From: Bacteroidales bacterium
GTDB taxonomy: Bacteria > Bacteroidota > Bacteroidia > Bacteroidales > Marinilabiliaceae
Length of the DNA: 43,115 bases
NCBI GenBank assembly: GCA_003251015.1
Contig: QKIO01000086.1
Location: 1 to 43,115, forward strand
Direction of reading: 5' to 3'
Below are positions 1-14,713 of the stretch, one piece after another. The notes under the pieces are model-generated. The model was not told the origin of the DNA and searched no databases. It saw nothing but the letters and a program-made list of their open reading frames with translations. The number at the start of each line of letters is the position of its first letter. Positions within the stretch are counted from its first letter, which is position 1. Position numbers and translations under genes: made by a program.

Positions 1-1002
1 ATAGCCCACATAGAGATAATCACCTGCCAACGAGCTCCAATTTATTTGATTATTCACAAAACTAGACTGGTAATAATACGTCAATGCACGATTATTGGAT
101 AAGGTTTTATTTCCATACAAACCCAAAGAACCATAAGTACTTTCGCTTAGTATATTGTAACTATTCCACTGCACGGTTAGTGGAAAAGATGGAAGAATAG
201 ACTCTTCTAATTTTCGGGAATGTGGCAGTTTCACAAAATCAGCACTCCCACTCCAAGCGCCCTTCGCGGCTACATTGGGATTTTGATTGATGACCTTCAC
301 TCGCATTCTGTATTTCAACTCATCAGCTTGCGCCTCGTATGGCAAGGGTTTATCAGTATCTCGCTCAATGGGGAAAACCAAAACCGTATCTGCATTTTGC
401 TTCAATCGTATGGTTTGACTTAACACACGAACGCGTTCTTTTTTAGCATTCATCAAATAGATACCCTGCTCCGTATTCGTAAGTACCACCAGTTCTTCGG
501 GTGAATTTCCATTGTTTTGAATGTGTAATGAGATGGATGATGAATCAGCATCATCTATAAAATAAACTTTATTGGATGAGATAGATGCGCTCCAATTCGA
601 CTGTTGCTCAGTACTTATATTCCAAACCGCATTGGCCACCGTGAAATTATTGTACGACACATAGGCATTGGTCACATACGTCATATTGCCCTGAAGCGCT
701 CCATTAGGCTTTAATCGAACGGGCACAAAAACAGAATCGTTAGCAGCTAAAACAATTTCATCTTTTACATTACCTACCAACTGCCAACCAGCAGGAGGAT
801 TAACCAATAAACGCACTTTCTTGTTTTCTTTACTGGCATTGACAAGACGTAACACATTCACCGCAATATCAATTTGTTTTATCTCCGAATCATTATTAAC
901 AAACCCCATTCTAATACCTGCATTCTGTCCATATACATTTTGTATTTGACTACAAAGAGTCAAACATAAAAGACAGATGATATATGAAATTGGGTTTCTC
1001 AA
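1..1002 (-). CDS. Secreted protein with signal peptide, two probable Ig-like domains and the start of beta-barrel-like sequence (3' end beyond the window edge)
   Basis: Manual reverse-strand translation is open for 334 codons from TTG at 1002-1000 to base 1: LRNPISYIICLLCLTLCSQIQNVYGQNAGIRMGFVNNDSEIKQIDIAVNVLRLVNASKENKKVRLLVNPPAGWQLVG...SFPLTVQWNSYNILSESTYGSLGLYGNKTLSNNRALTYYYQSSFVNNQINWSSLAGDYLYVGY. Missing from the ORF track because it has no ATG start and no stop in the window. Start codon uncertain. Confidence 0.75.
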   Translation of the reverse strand, partial: MRNPISYIICLLCLTLCSQIQNVYGQNAGIRMGFVNNDSEIKQIDIAVNVLRLVNASKENKKVRLLVNPPAGWQLVGNVKDEIVLAANDSVFVPVRLKPNGALQGNMTYVTNAYVSYNNFTVANAVWNISTEQQSNWSASISSNKVYFIDDADSSSISLHIQNNGNSPEELVVLTNTEQGIYLMNAKKERVRVLSQTIRLKQNADTVLVFPIERDTDKPLPYEAQADELKYRMRVKVINQNPNVAAKGAWSGSADFVKLPHSRKLEESILPSFPLTVQWNSYNILSESTYGSLGLYGNKTLSNNRALTYYYQSSFVNNQINWSSLAGDYLYVGY

Positions 1003-1021
1003 TGAGTTAGCAGTTATCGGT

Positions 1022-1600
1022 TTATAAATCTTGTACTATAATGTAATCTACCCTAAGCGAATACAAACCAGACTGATAACTTAAGCCAGGTGTGATTTTC
1101 ATATCTACGTTAAACTTATAACATCCTGGCGACACTAAATAACTGCCACTTTGGTTAGTCCCATTAGCAGGACAAGCCAAAGCCACATCAGGACTAATGG
1201 CTGAGCCAATAATGTACGTGGGAGTTAGAATGTCTTGTATGGGGAAAAACCCAGCGACCAAGGCTGTTCCTGATGCGTTACGAAATTTTAATTGCAAAAT
1301 ATCTATGGGAGGTGTTAATCCGCTTGTCGAATAGACTGATGATACATCCCACACACCAGCTACTGTAGTTGTAGCTCCTACATATAAATCCCACTGAGTG
1401 CCCACAGCTACCACATTTAACTCGCAAGCATTCATAAAGGTGAGGCCTGAGATATACTTATCCACTGTATTAAAATCAAAATGGAGGGATGGAGATGTTT
1501 TTAACGAAAAACTAACTGCTTGAGCGTAAGCCACCGTTGAAATAGCTAAAAACATCATTACGACAGCACTTATTCTTAAAACTCTTAGGACTTTCATCAC
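1022..1600 (-). CDS. Small secreted protein, paralog of 1687..2370
   Basis: 192 aa ORF with signal peptide (MMKVLRVLRISAVVMMFLAISTVAYAQA). Shares FDFNTVDKYISGL..WDLYV, KFNVDMKITPG and C-terminal YSLRVDYIIVQDL patterns with the next gene. Confidence 0.8.
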   Translation of the reverse strand: MMKVLRVLRISAVVMMFLAISTVAYAQAVSFSLKTSPSLHFDFNTVDKYISGLTFMNACELNVVAVGTQWDLYVGATTTVAGVWDVSSVYSTSGLTPPIDILQLKFRNASGTALVAGFFPIQDILTPTYIIGSAISPDVALACPANGTNQSGSYLVSPGCYKFNVDMKITPGLSYQSGLYSLRVDYIIVQDL

Positions 1601-1634
1601 AACTCAGGATTAGATAACAAAACGTTAAAATAGC

Positions 1635-1659
1635 AAAAGAAGGCTATTAACCTTCTTTT
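1635..1659 (-). terminator. Intercistronic hairpin (attenuator or mRNA-stabilising element) between the two secreted paralogs
   Basis: AAAAGAAGG-ctattaa-CCTTCTTTT, perfect 9-bp stem; on the minus strand followed by GCTATTTT. Confidence 0.55.
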
Positions 1660-1686
1660 CACAATTAAATAATACGTTTCGGCTTT

Positions 1687-2370
1687 TTACAAGTCTTCTA
1701 CCAAAGAGTAAACTATCTCCATGTAGTAATATCCTGCCATTGCAAAAGGCTCATTATTACCTGTTGTGGTAAGTAACACACTTGAACTTGGGAAAGTAGC
1801 GGGGATACCTGGCTTCAACCTCATATCAATTCTAAACTTATGCGTGGTTGGATTGGAGTTCGCAGTACCTGGAAGAAATGACTCTCCAACACCTGTGCCA
1901 ACCATACCAGCCAAAAATTGCGTTGCTGCAGCAGGGGCTCCACCTACAACACCTGAATTAGTTAATCCTTTTAACGACACAAACGCATCAAAATTCTCTG
2001 TAGTTGTGGCTGTGTTTACAACTGATGATTTCATGTGCAAGATCTCAGCTGGCAAACCATTATTACCATTGGTAGAATAAGCCTCAACTTGAGTCCACTC
2101 ATCGGTGTTGCAATAAGCAAACAAATCCCACGCTAGCGTAGCATCCACTTCTAATTGAGTGGCATTAAAACGTGTGATACCTTGTTGATACTCTTGAATG
2201 GTTTTAAACGTAAAGTCAACCTGAGGATTAGTAGTCATCGTTAAATTAAGAATACCTCGTAAATCCATGGTTACGTAGTTGTATTCTTCATCAGAAAGCT
2301 GAGCGTTCACACTTTGGGTAGACCCCAAAAGCAAAACGGCCGCAAAGGCAAGTAAAAATATCTTTTTCAT
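1687..2370 (-). CDS. Small secreted protein, paralog of 1022..1600
   Basis: ORF 1687..2427; the likely start is the internal MKKIFLLAFAAVLLLGSTQSVNAQ signal peptide with ATG at 2370. Shared motifs FTFKTIQEYQQGI..WDLFAY, KFRIDMRLKPG, YYYMEIVYSLVEDL. Confidence 0.8.
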   Translation of the reverse strand: MKKIFLLAFAAVLLLGSTQSVNAQLSDEEYNYVTMDLRGILNLTMTTNPQVDFTFKTIQEYQQGITRFNATQLEVDATLAWDLFAYCNTDEWTQVEAYSTNGNNGLPAEILHMKSSVVNTATTTENFDAFVSLKGLTNSGVVGGAPAAATQFLAGMVGTGVGESFLPGTANSNPTTHKFRIDMRLKPGIPATFPSSSVLLTTTGNNEPFAMAGYYYMEIVYSLVEDL

Positions 2371-3293: not shown

Positions 3294-3366
3294 GATTCAG
3301 TAGCTCAGCTGGTAGAGCACATCCCTTTTAAGGATGGGGTCCTGGGTTCGAACCCCAGCTGAATCA
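3294..3366 (+). tRNA. tRNA-Lys (anticodon TTT)
   Basis: Acceptor GATTCAG/CTGAATC, D-arm TAGCTCAGCTGGTAGAGCA, anticodon arm CATCC-CTTTTAA-GGATG, T-arm CTGGGTTCGAACCCCAG; CCA not encoded. Confidence 0.95.
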
Positions 3367-9021: not shown

Positions 9022-12000
9022 TTAATCATTCTTTTTAGGTTCAAACCTTAAAACTACATCAAATCCCGAAGACTTTGCACTTCCACTTTGAATACGAAGC
9101 GAAAAAATACGGTTTAATTCGTATTCTAAGGTAATGGTTTCTGGCGTAATTTCATCATCTTCGGTTTCGCCAATACCACGCTGATAGGTAACTAATAAAT
9201 CATTAGTGATATATTTGCCAACCACAAAAGCGGCACTTTGCCAGTTTTCGGTTGAATTGATCTCTATCATATCAAGATCTAAACGATTCCCTAATGTTTT
9301 TGTCAATTGTGAACTAACCATCTTAGCTAACATATTAGAACTTACAGACCCCACAATTCCATTTTGGTTATCCGAACTTGTTTCGTCAGGTGTTTTACCC
9401 GTCAGCAAAATAGAAATACCATCCGACTGAGATATTTGTTGATTATTAAGCGCAAAATTAATGGTCGGTTCTGATAAAAGCCCTGTCACAAAAACGTTTA
9501 AATCCTTCTTTTGCTTATCACTACCTCTATAAGTGTAGGTAGCATTAAAATGAAGTGACGGATCAAACGTTTCACCTCCCTGAAAAACAACTTCACCTTC
9601 CTTAATCGTAAACTTCTTTCCATAGAGAATATAGTGCCCTCGATTAATGCTAATATTTCCAAATAACTCAAACAGATCGCCAGTTTTAACCACATCAAGA
9701 TCCCCCATTAATTCTATTTTAGACTCTTCACTCTGAATCCATGTATTACGAGGTATTTCAATACGTAAACGCCCCGTCAGATTTTTCAATGCATTAGATT
9801 GTGTACGTTTCACTTTTAACTCATCCACTACTTTATCAGCTAATGTGATGACACTATCTTTCTGCTGATTTGCTTTATTCATGGCCTCAATGAGCATGGG
9901 AGTCTCGATATCATCAGAGACAGCACTATATTCATCTAAGGCTTCTAGATTTATAAACGACCTAAGAATACGCACCTTACCGCCAAACTCTGGTTTATTT
10001 TGTGTTGATTTCACAAAGGCATCGCCATCTATCTGAAGCACATACATATCGTTATCAACTACACTAAAATTAGTTGCCTTGGCATTAATCGTTGATTTAA
10101 CAATCCGATTTTTAATAATGGTTGAGTCAAACTCAACCATTCCAGATGCAAATAAACTCCCATTTTTTTGTTTGATTTGTAACGAGTCTACAAATAATTT
10201 AGCGCCATCAAAACGAAACAGAGCATTGATATCATTGTATTCTACACCTACAGTTGGATCTACAAAAACACCATTCTTAAGACTTACATTTCCAAAAAAC
10301 TGAGGACTTAATAATTCGCCTGATGATTTCACATCCACACTAAGCAAGCCTTGCGCATTGATTTTTGATCGCTTCAGAAAAACAGAATTAGCAATACTAA
10401 ATGAATCCATTTTCAGCTCAGCTTCAAACATTTTGGGATTTTGATATACAAAACCAGTAGAATCAACATACATCTGCATGGGTAAACGCAAATGCCCCTT
10501 TGCACTTTTACCTAAATTTGGAATACTTACTATTAATTCGGCCAAAGAATTAGCATACATTACCTGCCCTGAAATACCTGTCAGACTATAACCGCCATAG
10601 GTTGGTTTATCAATAGTAACCTCTCCTTTAATAACTGGCGCAGTGGCATTACCTTCTATCACCATCGATGCCGACAATAGACCACTAACAGAGTCCTCCA
10701 TCGCCAAATAGGGATTTAGCCTATTTAGATTCAACTCCCTTACTGCAAATTTAAAATTATCAGCCTGTTGAAAAGTAAAGTCACCTTGAGCATCTAAACT
10801 AAAATTAGGTGCTAAATAATCTTTTAGCTGTAATTTATTAAGTTGTATTGAATTGTTCACCAACTGCACAGACTGCGTGGTATCTGGCAGATAATAATGT
10901 CCTTGCTTAGTTCGGACTTCTAAACGTGGCAACGCAATAATTAAAGTATCACCTATATCAATACGCGACTCCACAATAGCATCTAACAATTGATTATTAA
11001 CCAGATGTGCATTAAGCTGAAGCTGGTCATTATTATACCTAGAAGTCACAGAAACAGCATCCAAGACAAAACCACCAGAAGCAAATCCATCCATCACCGC
11101 ATCAGCTTTAAGATCTAACAATCCATCTTGCATCACTCCAGACACATGAGCTCTTAATTCGTTAGCTTGTGAATTATAGGCCTTTATATTTGTACTTTTT
11201 AACTCAGCAGAAATCTGCAAACTAGACAAAACGCCATTTACAGTTCCTGATAAATCACAACGCTCAAAACCAATTGGCAATTCAATATAGTGATGCAAAA
11301 ACGAAAGTGAATCCATACTAATTTGCGAAACAGCCTGCAACTCGCTTGATTTCAAACTATACTGACCTCTCATAAAACCGTTGGCATTTGGCATCTGCAG
11401 TGCTAAGGAATCAATATACAACCTATCATTCTTTAATCGAATGGTTGATAAAAGTTTATCAACAGGAATATGGTAAACTGTAGAATTCTGTAATTCAACA
11501 ACAGCATCAATTTCTCTATTGGTTGCATCAAAGCCATATCCTTTGCCCTTTATTAAGCCATTAATAATAGTTCCATCCAACGATGGCATCAAGACTCCCA
11601 AATCAAACCTTTCTGTTTCTAGACTTACTGTGTAATTTGGATCTTGGCTTAAACTAGTAAGCATTCCACTTACTTTAACCTGACCTTCGCGCGTTTGAAT
11701 ATCTAAATCAGCACTTACTACATCATTCTGGTAATTTCCTTTTACTACAAAACGAGTAAACGAATGCCCATTATACGTCGAATTGGCCAAATTAGCCACC
11801 ACATTAACACGACTTTTAAGATCTAACAAATCGTCACCATTTAGTTGCAAACTACCATTCAAGATCGCTTGTGAAGACGGCATATCATACCAATGCTCTG
11901 GCCGTACACCGACTAAATTAATTGACAAATCGTACGGAGACTTTACAAACTCATCGTCTATAGCAGCAATCAGAGAGGTGCATCTCAATTGCAAAGCTAT

Positions 12001-12888
12001 TTGTTGACCCTCGTGCACTAAATCTAAGCTTAACAAGCTAACCTTTTCTTTGGTTGAAAAGCTAAACTTCACTCTTGGCGAACATTTGAGTGCAATAGAT
12101 GGTATGAAAACAGCTAACTCATCACGATCTAAAACCGTCATATATGCATTCCCGCTTAATGAATCCAGTGATTTATACTGCAAATCTGCCAACAAATCGG
12201 TTTTAGAAGTTTTTAGCTCCAAACTATCTACACCCATACCGTAGGCATTCATCTTAAACAAAAAACGAAATTGATTAATAGCTATAGTCGGCTGTTGCGT
12301 AGTCACCGAAAACGATCTCAAATTAAGCTCTAAGCCTGATGCATTATAATTACCATCCAACCATAAATTTAAACCCTTTACTTTTCTAGGTAATAACGAA
12401 TTAAACGACACGGTTTGGCACGAACCATCATTAACGCGAACAAAATTAGCTTTTATAGTATATGGAAATGGACTTGAATCACTTATTGTATCTTTAGGAG
12501 ACGGGCTCAGAAGATGAGTTATATTCCAGGTACTGTCGGGCCGCTGCCATATATTAAACACTGGATTATCAAGAATAAGAGAATCTAGGACTAAAACTTT
12601 GGAACGAAGCATTAACAAACTATAACTCAACCGAAGGGACGAAAATGACACAACGCACGAATCGTGGCTTGTCAACGAAACATCCTTTAACTCTAGATTC
12701 GTAAAAAAATTTCCTTTGAGCTCCCCCACTTCAATGTGCCCATCAATATACAATTCACCAGCAGCAATCAGCTTACTTTTCACAAAGAGCCTAAACGAAT
12801 CTGTTTGTGTTAAAAACAAAGCGGTCACCAATAACACCAACAGGGTTAGTATTAAATAAAACAGATATCTGATAGCCTTCCCAACCAT
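9022..12888 (-). CDS. tamB: TamB-family translocation/assembly module (DUF490 / AsmA-like)
   Basis: 1288 aa; N-terminal TM, long beta-repeat body, C-terminal YELNRIFSLRIQSGSAKSSGFDVVLRF typical of the TamB C-terminal domain. Confidence 0.9.
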   Translation of the reverse strand: MVGKAIRYLFYLILTLLVLLVTALFLTQTDSFRLFVKSKLIAAGELYIDGHIEVGELKGNFFTNLELKDVSLTSHDSCVVSFSSLRLSYSLLMLRSKVLVLDSLILDNPVFNIWQRPDSTWNITHLLSPSPKDTISDSSPFPYTIKANFVRVNDGSCQTVSFNSLLPRKVKGLNLWLDGNYNASGLELNLRSFSVTTQQPTIAINQFRFLFKMNAYGMGVDSLELKTSKTDLLADLQYKSLDSLSGNAYMTVLDRDELAVFIPSIALKCSPRVKFSFSTKEKVSLLSLDLVHEGQQIALQLRCTSLIAAIDDEFVKSPYDLSINLVGVRPEHWYDMPSSQAILNGSLQLNGDDLLDLKSRVNVVANLANSTYNGHSFTRFVVKGNYQNDVVSADLDIQTREGQVKVSGMLTSLSQDPNYTVSLETERFDLGVLMPSLDGTIINGLIKGKGYGFDATNREIDAVVELQNSTVYHIPVDKLLSTIRLKNDRLYIDSLALQMPNANGFMRGQYSLKSSELQAVSQISMDSLSFLHHYIELPIGFERCDLSGTVNGVLSSLQISAELKSTNIKAYNSQANELRAHVSGVMQDGLLDLKADAVMDGFASGGFVLDAVSVTSRYNNDQLQLNAHLVNNQLLDAIVESRIDIGDTLIIALPRLEVRTKQGHYYLPDTTQSVQLVNNSIQLNKLQLKDYLAPNFSLDAQGDFTFQQADNFKFAVRELNLNRLNPYLAMEDSVSGLLSASMVIEGNATAPVIKGEVTIDKPTYGGYSLTGISGQVMYANSLAELIVSIPNLGKSAKGHLRLPMQMYVDSTGFVYQNPKMFEAELKMDSFSIANSVFLKRSKINAQGLLSVDVKSSGELLSPQFFGNVSLKNGVFVDPTVGVEYNDINALFRFDGAKLFVDSLQIKQKNGSLFASGMVEFDSTIIKNRIVKSTINAKATNFSVVDNDMYVLQIDGDAFVKSTQNKPEFGGKVRILRSFINLEALDEYSAVSDDIETPMLIEAMNKANQQKDSVITLADKVVDELKVKRTQSNALKNLTGRLRIEIPRNTWIQSEESKIELMGDLDVVKTGDLFELFGNISINRGHYILYGKKFTIKEGEVVFQGGETFDPSLHFNATYTYRGSDKQKKDLNVFVTGLLSEPTINFALNNQQISQSDGISILLTGKTPDETSSDNQNGIVGSVSSNMLAKMVSSQLTKTLGNRLDLDMIEINSTENWQSAAFVVGKYITNDLLVTYQRGIGETEDDEITPETITLEYELNRIFSLRIQSGSAKSSGFDVVLRFEPKKND

Positions 12889-12892
12889 ACAA

Positions 12893-14713
12893 TTAGAACG
12901 GATTACCTATATTAACACTTATTTGCCAAGTCTTAAACTCCTCAAATACAGGCCTTGCAAAATCAATTCCTGCAGGACCAATGGGTGTTTTAATACGTAC
13001 CCCTACGCCTACAGAATAATGCAAATCGTTTAATTGATAATAAAACGATTGCTGCCAAACATTCCCACCATCACCAAACAAGGCAAAAGTGATCAATTTC
13101 TTAACGGTTAATCGAAACTCGGCACTTCCTTCCAACAGACTATTACCTCCTGATGGTTTGCCATATTCATCATGTGGACCTAACTCGCTTCTTGACCATC
13201 CTCGAACAGACTGTGATCCCCCAGCATAGAAACGTTCTTCCGAAGGGATGTAAGGATTATCATCGGTTCTATTAATGCCACCTCCTTTGGCCTTTAAAGC
13301 TAGAATCAATCCATTTCTAATGCCATAATACTTTTTATACTCTGCCAAAATACGATAGAAAGGCATATCTGTAGCACCATAAAGACCATTTGTCTTAAGA
13401 TTTATAGAAGCTACATATCCTTGAACGGGATCTAATATTGGATTCGAATTATTAAATGAACCACTTAACAACAAGCCTGACTTAGAATACAAACCCTGAT
13501 CATATTCTGTAATATCTATCTGACTCAAATTAGTAGTATCTTGCTTTACATCTTCATACACGTAAGACAAAGAAGTGTTTAGTTGCTTCGAAAAGTTCTG
13601 TTGCATGGACAGATTGACACCTGTGTTGGTTATCGAATATCCCGGTTCGTTTTGATTTTGCAAATAAGGATAAATGCTAAACGTGTTTATTGGAAAAAAT
13701 ACCGAAGGCTGAGAAAATTTCAAATACACATTATAAGGTTCTAGATAAGAATGCTTGGCATAAAAATTTAATCGACCGGTATGGGTGATAACACCCAGTA
13801 ATTGCAGCTCAGAAAAAACCCTAAACCGATCTTCCTTCCCGTAGCCCACACCAAAACGAGTAGTCCACCTAGGCGCTTCCTTAATTTGTATCTTAACTAA
13901 AACTGTATCTAAAGAAGTATTACTCATCACCGACTTTAGTGATGCTACTCGATACATGCCTTGGTTGTATATCTGCTTTTGCGTTTGATCAATTTTCTTC
14001 TTCGACCACACATCTCCAGGTTTGTAGGCCAACTGGCGATATATAGACTTGTCAGGTACTTTATCATTTCCTTCAATAATAGTAGAACCAAAATGAGCTA
14101 ATGGACCTTTAGTAATAGTCCAATCTAAGGTTGTGGTATTGGTTAATGTATCAACAAGTAAATTATAATCAACCTTGGCATAAGGGTAACCTATATTACC
14201 AAATTGTTCTACCAGCAACACCTGATCATTTATAAGAGACTGGTCTCTAAAGGTTTTGGAGGCTAACAACTGAGACTGCAGTGCAATATTCTGATGCCCT
14301 CGACGAGATAAAGATTCATTCAAAGTATATAAAGAGTCTACCGTAAAACTAACTTGTGAGACTTTAATAGGACTGCCCTCCTCCACAAAAATAGTTACAT
14401 AAACCCGTTGCTTTTTAGTCACCTTCACATCAGGCTCTAAAAACTTGAAATTGAGATAACCCTCTTTTTGATAAAGACTTGTAATACGCTCCACATCTTC
14501 CTTGTAAAGCTTCTTGGAATACAGAATTGGTTTTTTCTTGAGGATTTTTCTTTTAAACCATGAAGTTGATTCAAGTGTCAGATTATCTCTAATCATAGAC
14601 TTTTCAAACACTTTTTGCCCTTTTATCTTAACCTTGGCTATGGGCAAATTATCTTGAGACCGCGCTACGCTAACTAAAACAAATAAAAGAATATGTACAA
14701 ATAGTGATTTCAA
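12893..14713 (-). CDS. tamA: TamA/BamA-family (Omp85) outer-membrane protein
   Basis: 606 aa; signal peptide, POTRA-like segments, C-terminal barrel with RFYAGGSQSVRGWSRSELGP and VGVGVRIKTPIGPAGIDFA. Stop is 4 nt before the tamB start. Confidence 0.88.
   Translation of the reverse strand: MKSLFVHILLFVLVSVARSQDNLPIAKVKIKGQKVFEKSMIRDNLTLESTSWFKRKILKKKPILYSKKLYKEDVERITSLYQKEGYLNFKFLEPDVKVTKKQRVYVTIFVEEGSPIKVSQVSFTVDSLYTLNESLSRRGHQNIALQSQLLASKTFRDQSLINDQVLLVEQFGNIGYPYAKVDYNLLVDTLTNTTTLDWTITKGPLAHFGSTIIEGNDKVPDKSIYRQLAYKPGDVWSKKKIDQTQKQIYNQGMYRVASLKSVMSNTSLDTVLVKIQIKEAPRWTTRFGVGYGKEDRFRVFSELQLLGVITHTGRLNFYAKHSYLEPYNVYLKFSQPSVFFPINTFSIYPYLQNQNEPGYSITNTGVNLSMQQNFSKQLNTSLSYVYEDVKQDTTNLSQIDITEYDQGLYSKSGLLLSGSFNNSNPILDPVQGYVASINLKTNGLYGATDMPFYRILAEYKKYYGIRNGLILALKAKGGGINRTDDNPYIPSEERFYAGGSQSVRGWSRSELGPHDEYGKPSGGNSLLEGSAEFRLTVKKLITFALFGDGGNVWQQSFYYQLNDLHYSVGVGVRIKTPIGPAGIDFARPVFEEFKTWQISVNIGNPF

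Follow-up and report, generated by a model that had tools for sequence, protein, structure and literature searches.

Chaperone–usher pili, certain chaperone–usher operons of another Bacteroidota family (f49), the type V pili of Porphyromonas, and the TLP-1 fibrils are the systems closest to the locus described here. Like the classical chaperone–usher systems, the locus carries a gene for a PapD-like chaperone of two Ig domains, encodes secreted subunits with and without an N-terminal extension, and includes a large predicted barrel that is followed by two C-terminal beta domains. Compared to the classical systems, it also exhibits several differences. The barrel protein shows no PF00577 similarity, possesses neither the usher N-terminal domain nor the plug, and carries two Ig domains in front of the barrel and a SPOR or OmpA domain behind it, while the subunits are not recognizably FimA-like.

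The type V pili of Porphyromonas (FimA, Mfa1) are likewise filaments of Bacteroidota, and strand donation is thought to be used in their assembly. They are built from lipoprotein subunits that are activated by proteolysis, and neither a chaperone nor an usher has been described for those of P. gingivalis (PMC5789003). In the literature searched, chaperones or ushers for Bacteroidota pili were not described.

The TLP-1 fibrils are represented by the cryo-EM structures 9ikj (TLP-1a) and 9ikk (TLP-1b), which are assemblies of 16 chains. They share with A, the first subunit of the locus, the protomer fold (by Foldseek) and an N-terminal extension; they differ from A in sequence (about 33% identity), and no genes came with them. 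We take these structures to be the pond-water fibrils of CryoSeek, the work of Wang et al. in PNAS 2024. TLP fibrils from pond water have been described as unidentified. The comparisons below make it probable that the operon encodes a chaperone–usher-type pilus with a divergent, non-canonical usher.

Organization of the locus

The window (the whole stretch of DNA analyzed, 43,115 nucleotides) comprises all of contig C90; the assembly has a size of 3.1 Mb and consists of 389 contigs. An ORF check recovered the three open reading frames of A, B, and the third gene at the coordinates given by an earlier, sequence-only reading of the window. The features are as follows.

1687 to 2370, minus strand: gene A, secreted candidate rod subunit (major pilin candidate), 227 aa; ORF with ATG at 2370 and stop at 1687
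2248 to 2301, minus strand: N-terminal extension of A, candidate donor strand, QLSDEEYNYVTMDLRGIL; follows the signal peptide and is lacking in B
1633 to 1662, minus strand: hairpin between A and B with a T-rich 3′ side, candidate attenuator; conserved, with covariation
1022 to 1600, minus strand: gene B, secreted paralog of A, candidate tip or initiator, 192 aa; ORF with GTG start at 1600
1 to 1002, minus strand: usher-like gene, 5′ third, 334 aa, with signal peptide, two Ig domains, and barrel start; TTG at 1002, open at base 1
283 to 921, minus strand: two Ig-like domains ahead of the barrel; from the AlphaFold2 model of the relative L029 (residues 30–240), mapped via alignment A3
1 to 183, minus strand: first strands of the predicted outer-membrane barrel; barrel start in the model at about residue 274, mapped via alignment A3

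As the window is a complete contig, the third gene is truncated by the assembly. A check for the adjacent contig pointed to C154, which belongs to this assembly as well and carries the 3′ end of the barrel gene (211 aa, including a SPOR domain) and, after it, a fourth gene, which encodes a chaperone of 277 aa. The middle of the barrel gene is missing from the assembly, between C90 and C154. The operon order is A, B, barrel (usher-like) gene, and chaperone gene, the last on C154. After the chaperone gene, C154 also encodes a large secreted protein (L038, 3-1307), which has weak DUF5649 repeats and is cut at the contig end. Near the upstream side of the operon, a tRNA gene lies at 3294-3366 of the window (Rfam match); an Rfam scan near the operon yielded this type of element only, and no TAnnTTTG promoter elements were found upstream of A. 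Farther away, at 9022-14713, a TamB-like protein is encoded beside an Omp85/POTRA protein, likely a translocation and assembly module pair.

The hairpin between A and B was present in 12 of 12 loci. It comprises 13 pairs, with 95.5% of cells paired and seven pairs in which both partners have changed together, and its covariation was 0.451 compared to 0.206 in shuffles. A terminator-like scan match at 1659–1635 falls within it. These features fit an attenuator that would raise A over the downstream genes; a hairpin after the major subunit gene is also found in the fimA and papA operons.

Conservation of the operon

Surveying the co-occurrence of A, B, and the Ig-barrel gene, which the sequence-only reading had proposed to belong together, found all three in the same genomes: the barrel gene occurs in 14 of the 71 genomes of the family, and A and B both occur in exactly those 14. 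The chance of such a coincidence between the usher-like gene and A plus B would be 4e-15 if the genomes were independent; they are not, and this value overstates the significance. A full-length chaperone was found in 13 of the 14 genomes with the operon and nowhere else among the 71; in the fourteenth (G034), the contig breaks off within the barrel gene. The order and content of the operon are conserved where it occurs in the family, and the named relatives that carry it are the cultured environmental Carboxylicivirga sp. A043, Alkalitalea saponilacus, Natronoflexus pectinivorans, and Geofilum. Chaperone remnants were seen in two genomes of the family that are without the operon, one interrupted by stops (G079:C351:64683-64997) and one of 47 aa (G012:C186:16951-17091); being degraded, they suggest past loss.

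In other families, the chaperone was present in 12 of the 13 genomes with the barrel gene, the exception being G053, which is 70% complete. The loci of these families have small pilin-like genes in tandem, one to five per locus. Seven of these loci also encode a protein of 340–480 aa with a C-terminal pilin domain (E 6.6e-20), which is laid out like a two-domain tip adhesin. Three to five similar pilin-like genes stand in tandem at L072, L075, and L076, which suggests that the rod subunit varies in copy number or antigenically. At four of the loci in other families (L023-L026), the chaperone gene is not beside the barrel gene, though three of the four genomes encode a chaperone elsewhere, and the barrel protein has an OmpA-like domain at its C-terminus in place of SPOR.

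The chaperone

Using hhalign, 16 Bacteroidota chaperone sequences were compared with ten chaperones of E. coli K-12. The match to the PapD family extended over 209 columns and both Ig domains, with a probability of 95.9 and an E of 5.5e-9, and the best score in 100 column shuffles was 25 compared to 66 for the real alignment. Single-sequence Pfam matches to PapD_N were below the curated cut-off. Aligned with FimC, 14 of the 16 chaperones have Arg where FimC has its anchor Arg, and 14 of the 16 have Lys or His in place of its anchor Lys; in PapD and FimC, these two residues anchor the pilin. The chaperone profile also matched the WxL-interacting protein 9i25 (E 1.7e-5), which indicates that related two-Ig proteins exist outside chaperone–usher systems. 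Judged from these alignments, the product of the fourth gene is a PapD-like chaperone.

Subunits A and B and their relation to TLP-1 fibrils

The profiles of A and B matched each other with a probability of 99.8 and an E of 1.4e-27, which identifies the two proteins as true paralogs, as had been supposed. Both group with the tandem pilins of the other families (profile–profile E 1e-13). Searches of A, B, and the barrel fragment against Pfam, NCBIfam, and PHROGs gave no confident match. In agreement with the sequence-only reading, neither Pfam nor NCBIfam matched a T9SS sorting domain on A or B; a lipobox was likewise absent from both, FimA and Mfa domains did not match, and similarity of the two to FimA-type pilins was not significant. 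A plasmid search with A gave no matches.

A and B differ at the N-terminus. The distance from the predicted cleavage (AQ) site to the first conserved Phe is 28–30 residues in A and 13–16 residues in B, ranges that are disjoint (11 loci each). The extension of A amounts to about 14 residues, and B lacks it in 11 of the 11 loci compared. The alternating pattern of this extension, V-x-M-x-L-x-G-x-L, resembles V-T-I-T-V-N-G-K-V, the donor strand of E. coli FimG. By this analogy, the extension is a candidate donor strand. The presence of the extension in A and its absence in B are as expected of a rod subunit and a tip initiator, respectively, and the best reading is that A forms the rod and that B would take the tip.

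Homology of A to the TLP-1 fibrils was found by several comparisons. Searches of A with phmmer matched 9ikk (E 2.6e-10) and 9ikj (E 4.4e-10), and the A family profile matched TLP-1 with an E of 1.1e-14. The predicted structure of A, a weak model with a pLDDT of 64, matched 9ikj in Foldseek (E 2.5e-9). The homology of the TLP-1 protomer to A extends along 170 residues at about 33% identity, and the N-terminal extension of A is also present in TLP-1. In a search of 398 Bacteroidota genomes, the TLP-1b sequence gave two matches, namely A of the window and A of the operon in G417. By sequence and by fold, A is homologous to the protomers of the TLP-1a and TLP-1b fibrils.

The usher-like barrel protein

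In full-length relatives of the barrel protein (978–1206 aa), a signal peptide and two Ig domains precede the predicted barrel, which has about 24–26 strands, and two C-terminal beta domains follow it, often together with SPOR or OmpA. An AlphaFold2 model of the Carboxylicivirga relative L029 (pLDDT 70.9, pTM 0.46) contains a signal helix, two Ig-like beta domains at residues 30–240, 26 strands of at least seven residues between residues 274 and 753, and beta domains C-terminal of the barrel. The model bears out the description of the third protein as a signal peptide, two Ig domains, and the onset of a barrel, whose first strands had been seen in the fragment. There is no plug domain in the L029 model, in which the longest gap between strands is 24 residues, and the usher N-terminal domain is absent from the barrel protein, with the two Ig domains at that position. 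In Foldseek, the barrel model matched the ushers FimD and PapC about as well as it matched the TonB receptor BtuB (E 2.5e-7 to 5e-7, TM about 0.3–0.4) and so did not tell the two kinds of barrel apart.

PF00577 did not match in 21 relatives or in the 71 family genomes. Profile–profile comparison of the barrel protein with K-12 ushers detected no sequence relation (E 0.057), and comparison with EcpC likewise gave nothing; in a control, however, the K-12 ushers also failed to match EcpC, a member of another usher clade (E 0.0096), so that the negative result for the barrel protein is not strong. SdrD_B/SpaA and CarboxypepD_reg domains follow the barrel in 17–19 of the 21 relatives; because the SdrD_B and CarboxypepD_reg families are widespread, C-terminal beta domains are a weak criterion on their own. 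With no PF00577 match and no plug, the barrel protein is a variant outside the classical usher class and not a member of it. The best reading is that it functions like an usher, and it would then provide the pore and transport the subunits.

Operons of family f49 form a bridge to the classical systems. Matches to PF00577 were found in 5 of the 398 Bacteroidota genomes, all of this family, one of them over the curated cut-off. The chaperones of the f49 operons (L102-L106) are homologous to that of the window system over both domains (E 5.6e-16), the C-terminal domains of their ushers match those of the window-type barrel protein (E 8.3e-9), and their pilins, one of which is a DUF4402 protein, match the window-type pilins (E 2.5e-6); shuffles reached at best an E of 0.04 to 0.1. 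Some f49 ushers also have SPOR tails, as in the window system. Unlike the window system, however, the f49 usher retains a recognizable PF00577 barrel (E 2.1e-14 in L102). These homologies link the window system to true chaperone–usher systems via all components except the barrel and the N-terminal part, and the f49 systems are possibly intermediate between the classical and the window type.

Alternative explanations

One alternative concerns the origin of the usher alone. Instead of being a diverged PF00577 usher, the barrel protein could descend from a plug-less barrel of separate origin, equipped with Ig modules at the N-terminus and a tail that binds peptidoglycan, which took over a chaperone–usher pilus and makes TLP-1-type environmental fibrils. 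We regard this as possible but rather unlikely; if true, the recruited barrel would be a new usher class in which gating and recruiting are carried out by Ig domains. The sequence-only reading had proposed chaperone and pore as one polypeptide, in which the Ig pair of the barrel protein would itself chaperone A and B. The first Ig domain is indeed similar to the first domain of the separate chaperone (E 6.6e-7), although the Ig pair matches the chaperone over this one domain only and does not match PapD-family chaperones (E 0.002). The four loci of other families without a chaperone gene beside the barrel gene would also agree with a fusion, but in three of these genomes the chaperone is encoded elsewhere and the fourth is 70% complete. 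In the family itself, a separate PapD-like chaperone gene of two Ig domains adjoins the barrel gene, following it in the relatives and on C154, so that a fused chaperone and pore is not needed. The one-polypeptide proposal was rejected on account of this gene, and we consider it very improbable. Of the chaperone–usher-like assembly proposed from the sequence, the operon, the two subunit paralogs, the predicted barrel, and the strict co-occurrence have stood, while the fusion has not; the chaperone gene on C154 makes the parallel to chaperone–usher systems stronger.

Somewhat less improbable, though still improbable, is that the locus makes no pilus and that A and B form a surface coat or matrix lattice, with the barrel as an anchor or as another export pore. 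An anchor is suggested by the SPOR and OmpA domains, and the WxL-interacting protein matched by the chaperone profile is a Gram-positive surface protein. The PapD match of the chaperone is stronger than this match, though obtained by a different method, and in the TLP-1 structures, the homologs of A form assemblies of 16 chains; the difference between A and B in the N-terminal extension, together with the tandem pilins and two-domain tip proteins of other loci, also speaks against a coat. Least probable of all is a type V (FimA/Mfa1-like) pilus or a surface system exported by the T9SS. For filaments and surface export, these are the systems known in the phylum, and the protein with weak DUF5649 repeats after the chaperone gene would be in keeping with them, but A and B have neither a lipobox nor FimA, Mfa, or T9SS domain matches, and the window system has genes of both the chaperone and the usher kind, which are not described for the type V pili of P. 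gingivalis (PMC5789003).

Proposed assembly pathway and implications

For a chaperone–usher-type pilus, the following pathway is proposed. A, B, the PapD-like chaperone, and the barrel protein would reach the periplasm via Sec signal peptides. The chaperone would cap each unfinished subunit and pass it to the barrel protein. B, which has no N-terminal extension, would go first and become the tip; A would follow in large number, each copy contributing its N-terminal strand to its predecessor, and the barrel would serve as the exit for the rod. The C-terminal SPOR or OmpA domain of the barrel protein may tie this platform to peptidoglycan, and the hairpin 3′ of gene A would maintain the excess of A. 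Once assembled, the rod is expected to look like the TLP-1 fibrils.

With this operon, the Bacteroidota gain a complete candidate chaperone–usher pathway with a new kind of usher. The operon also provides a candidate genetic home for the TLP-1 fibrils, whose structures were obtained from pond water with no source identified, and it opens to test which organism makes these fibrils, by what route they exit the cell, and what cargo is carried at the tip.
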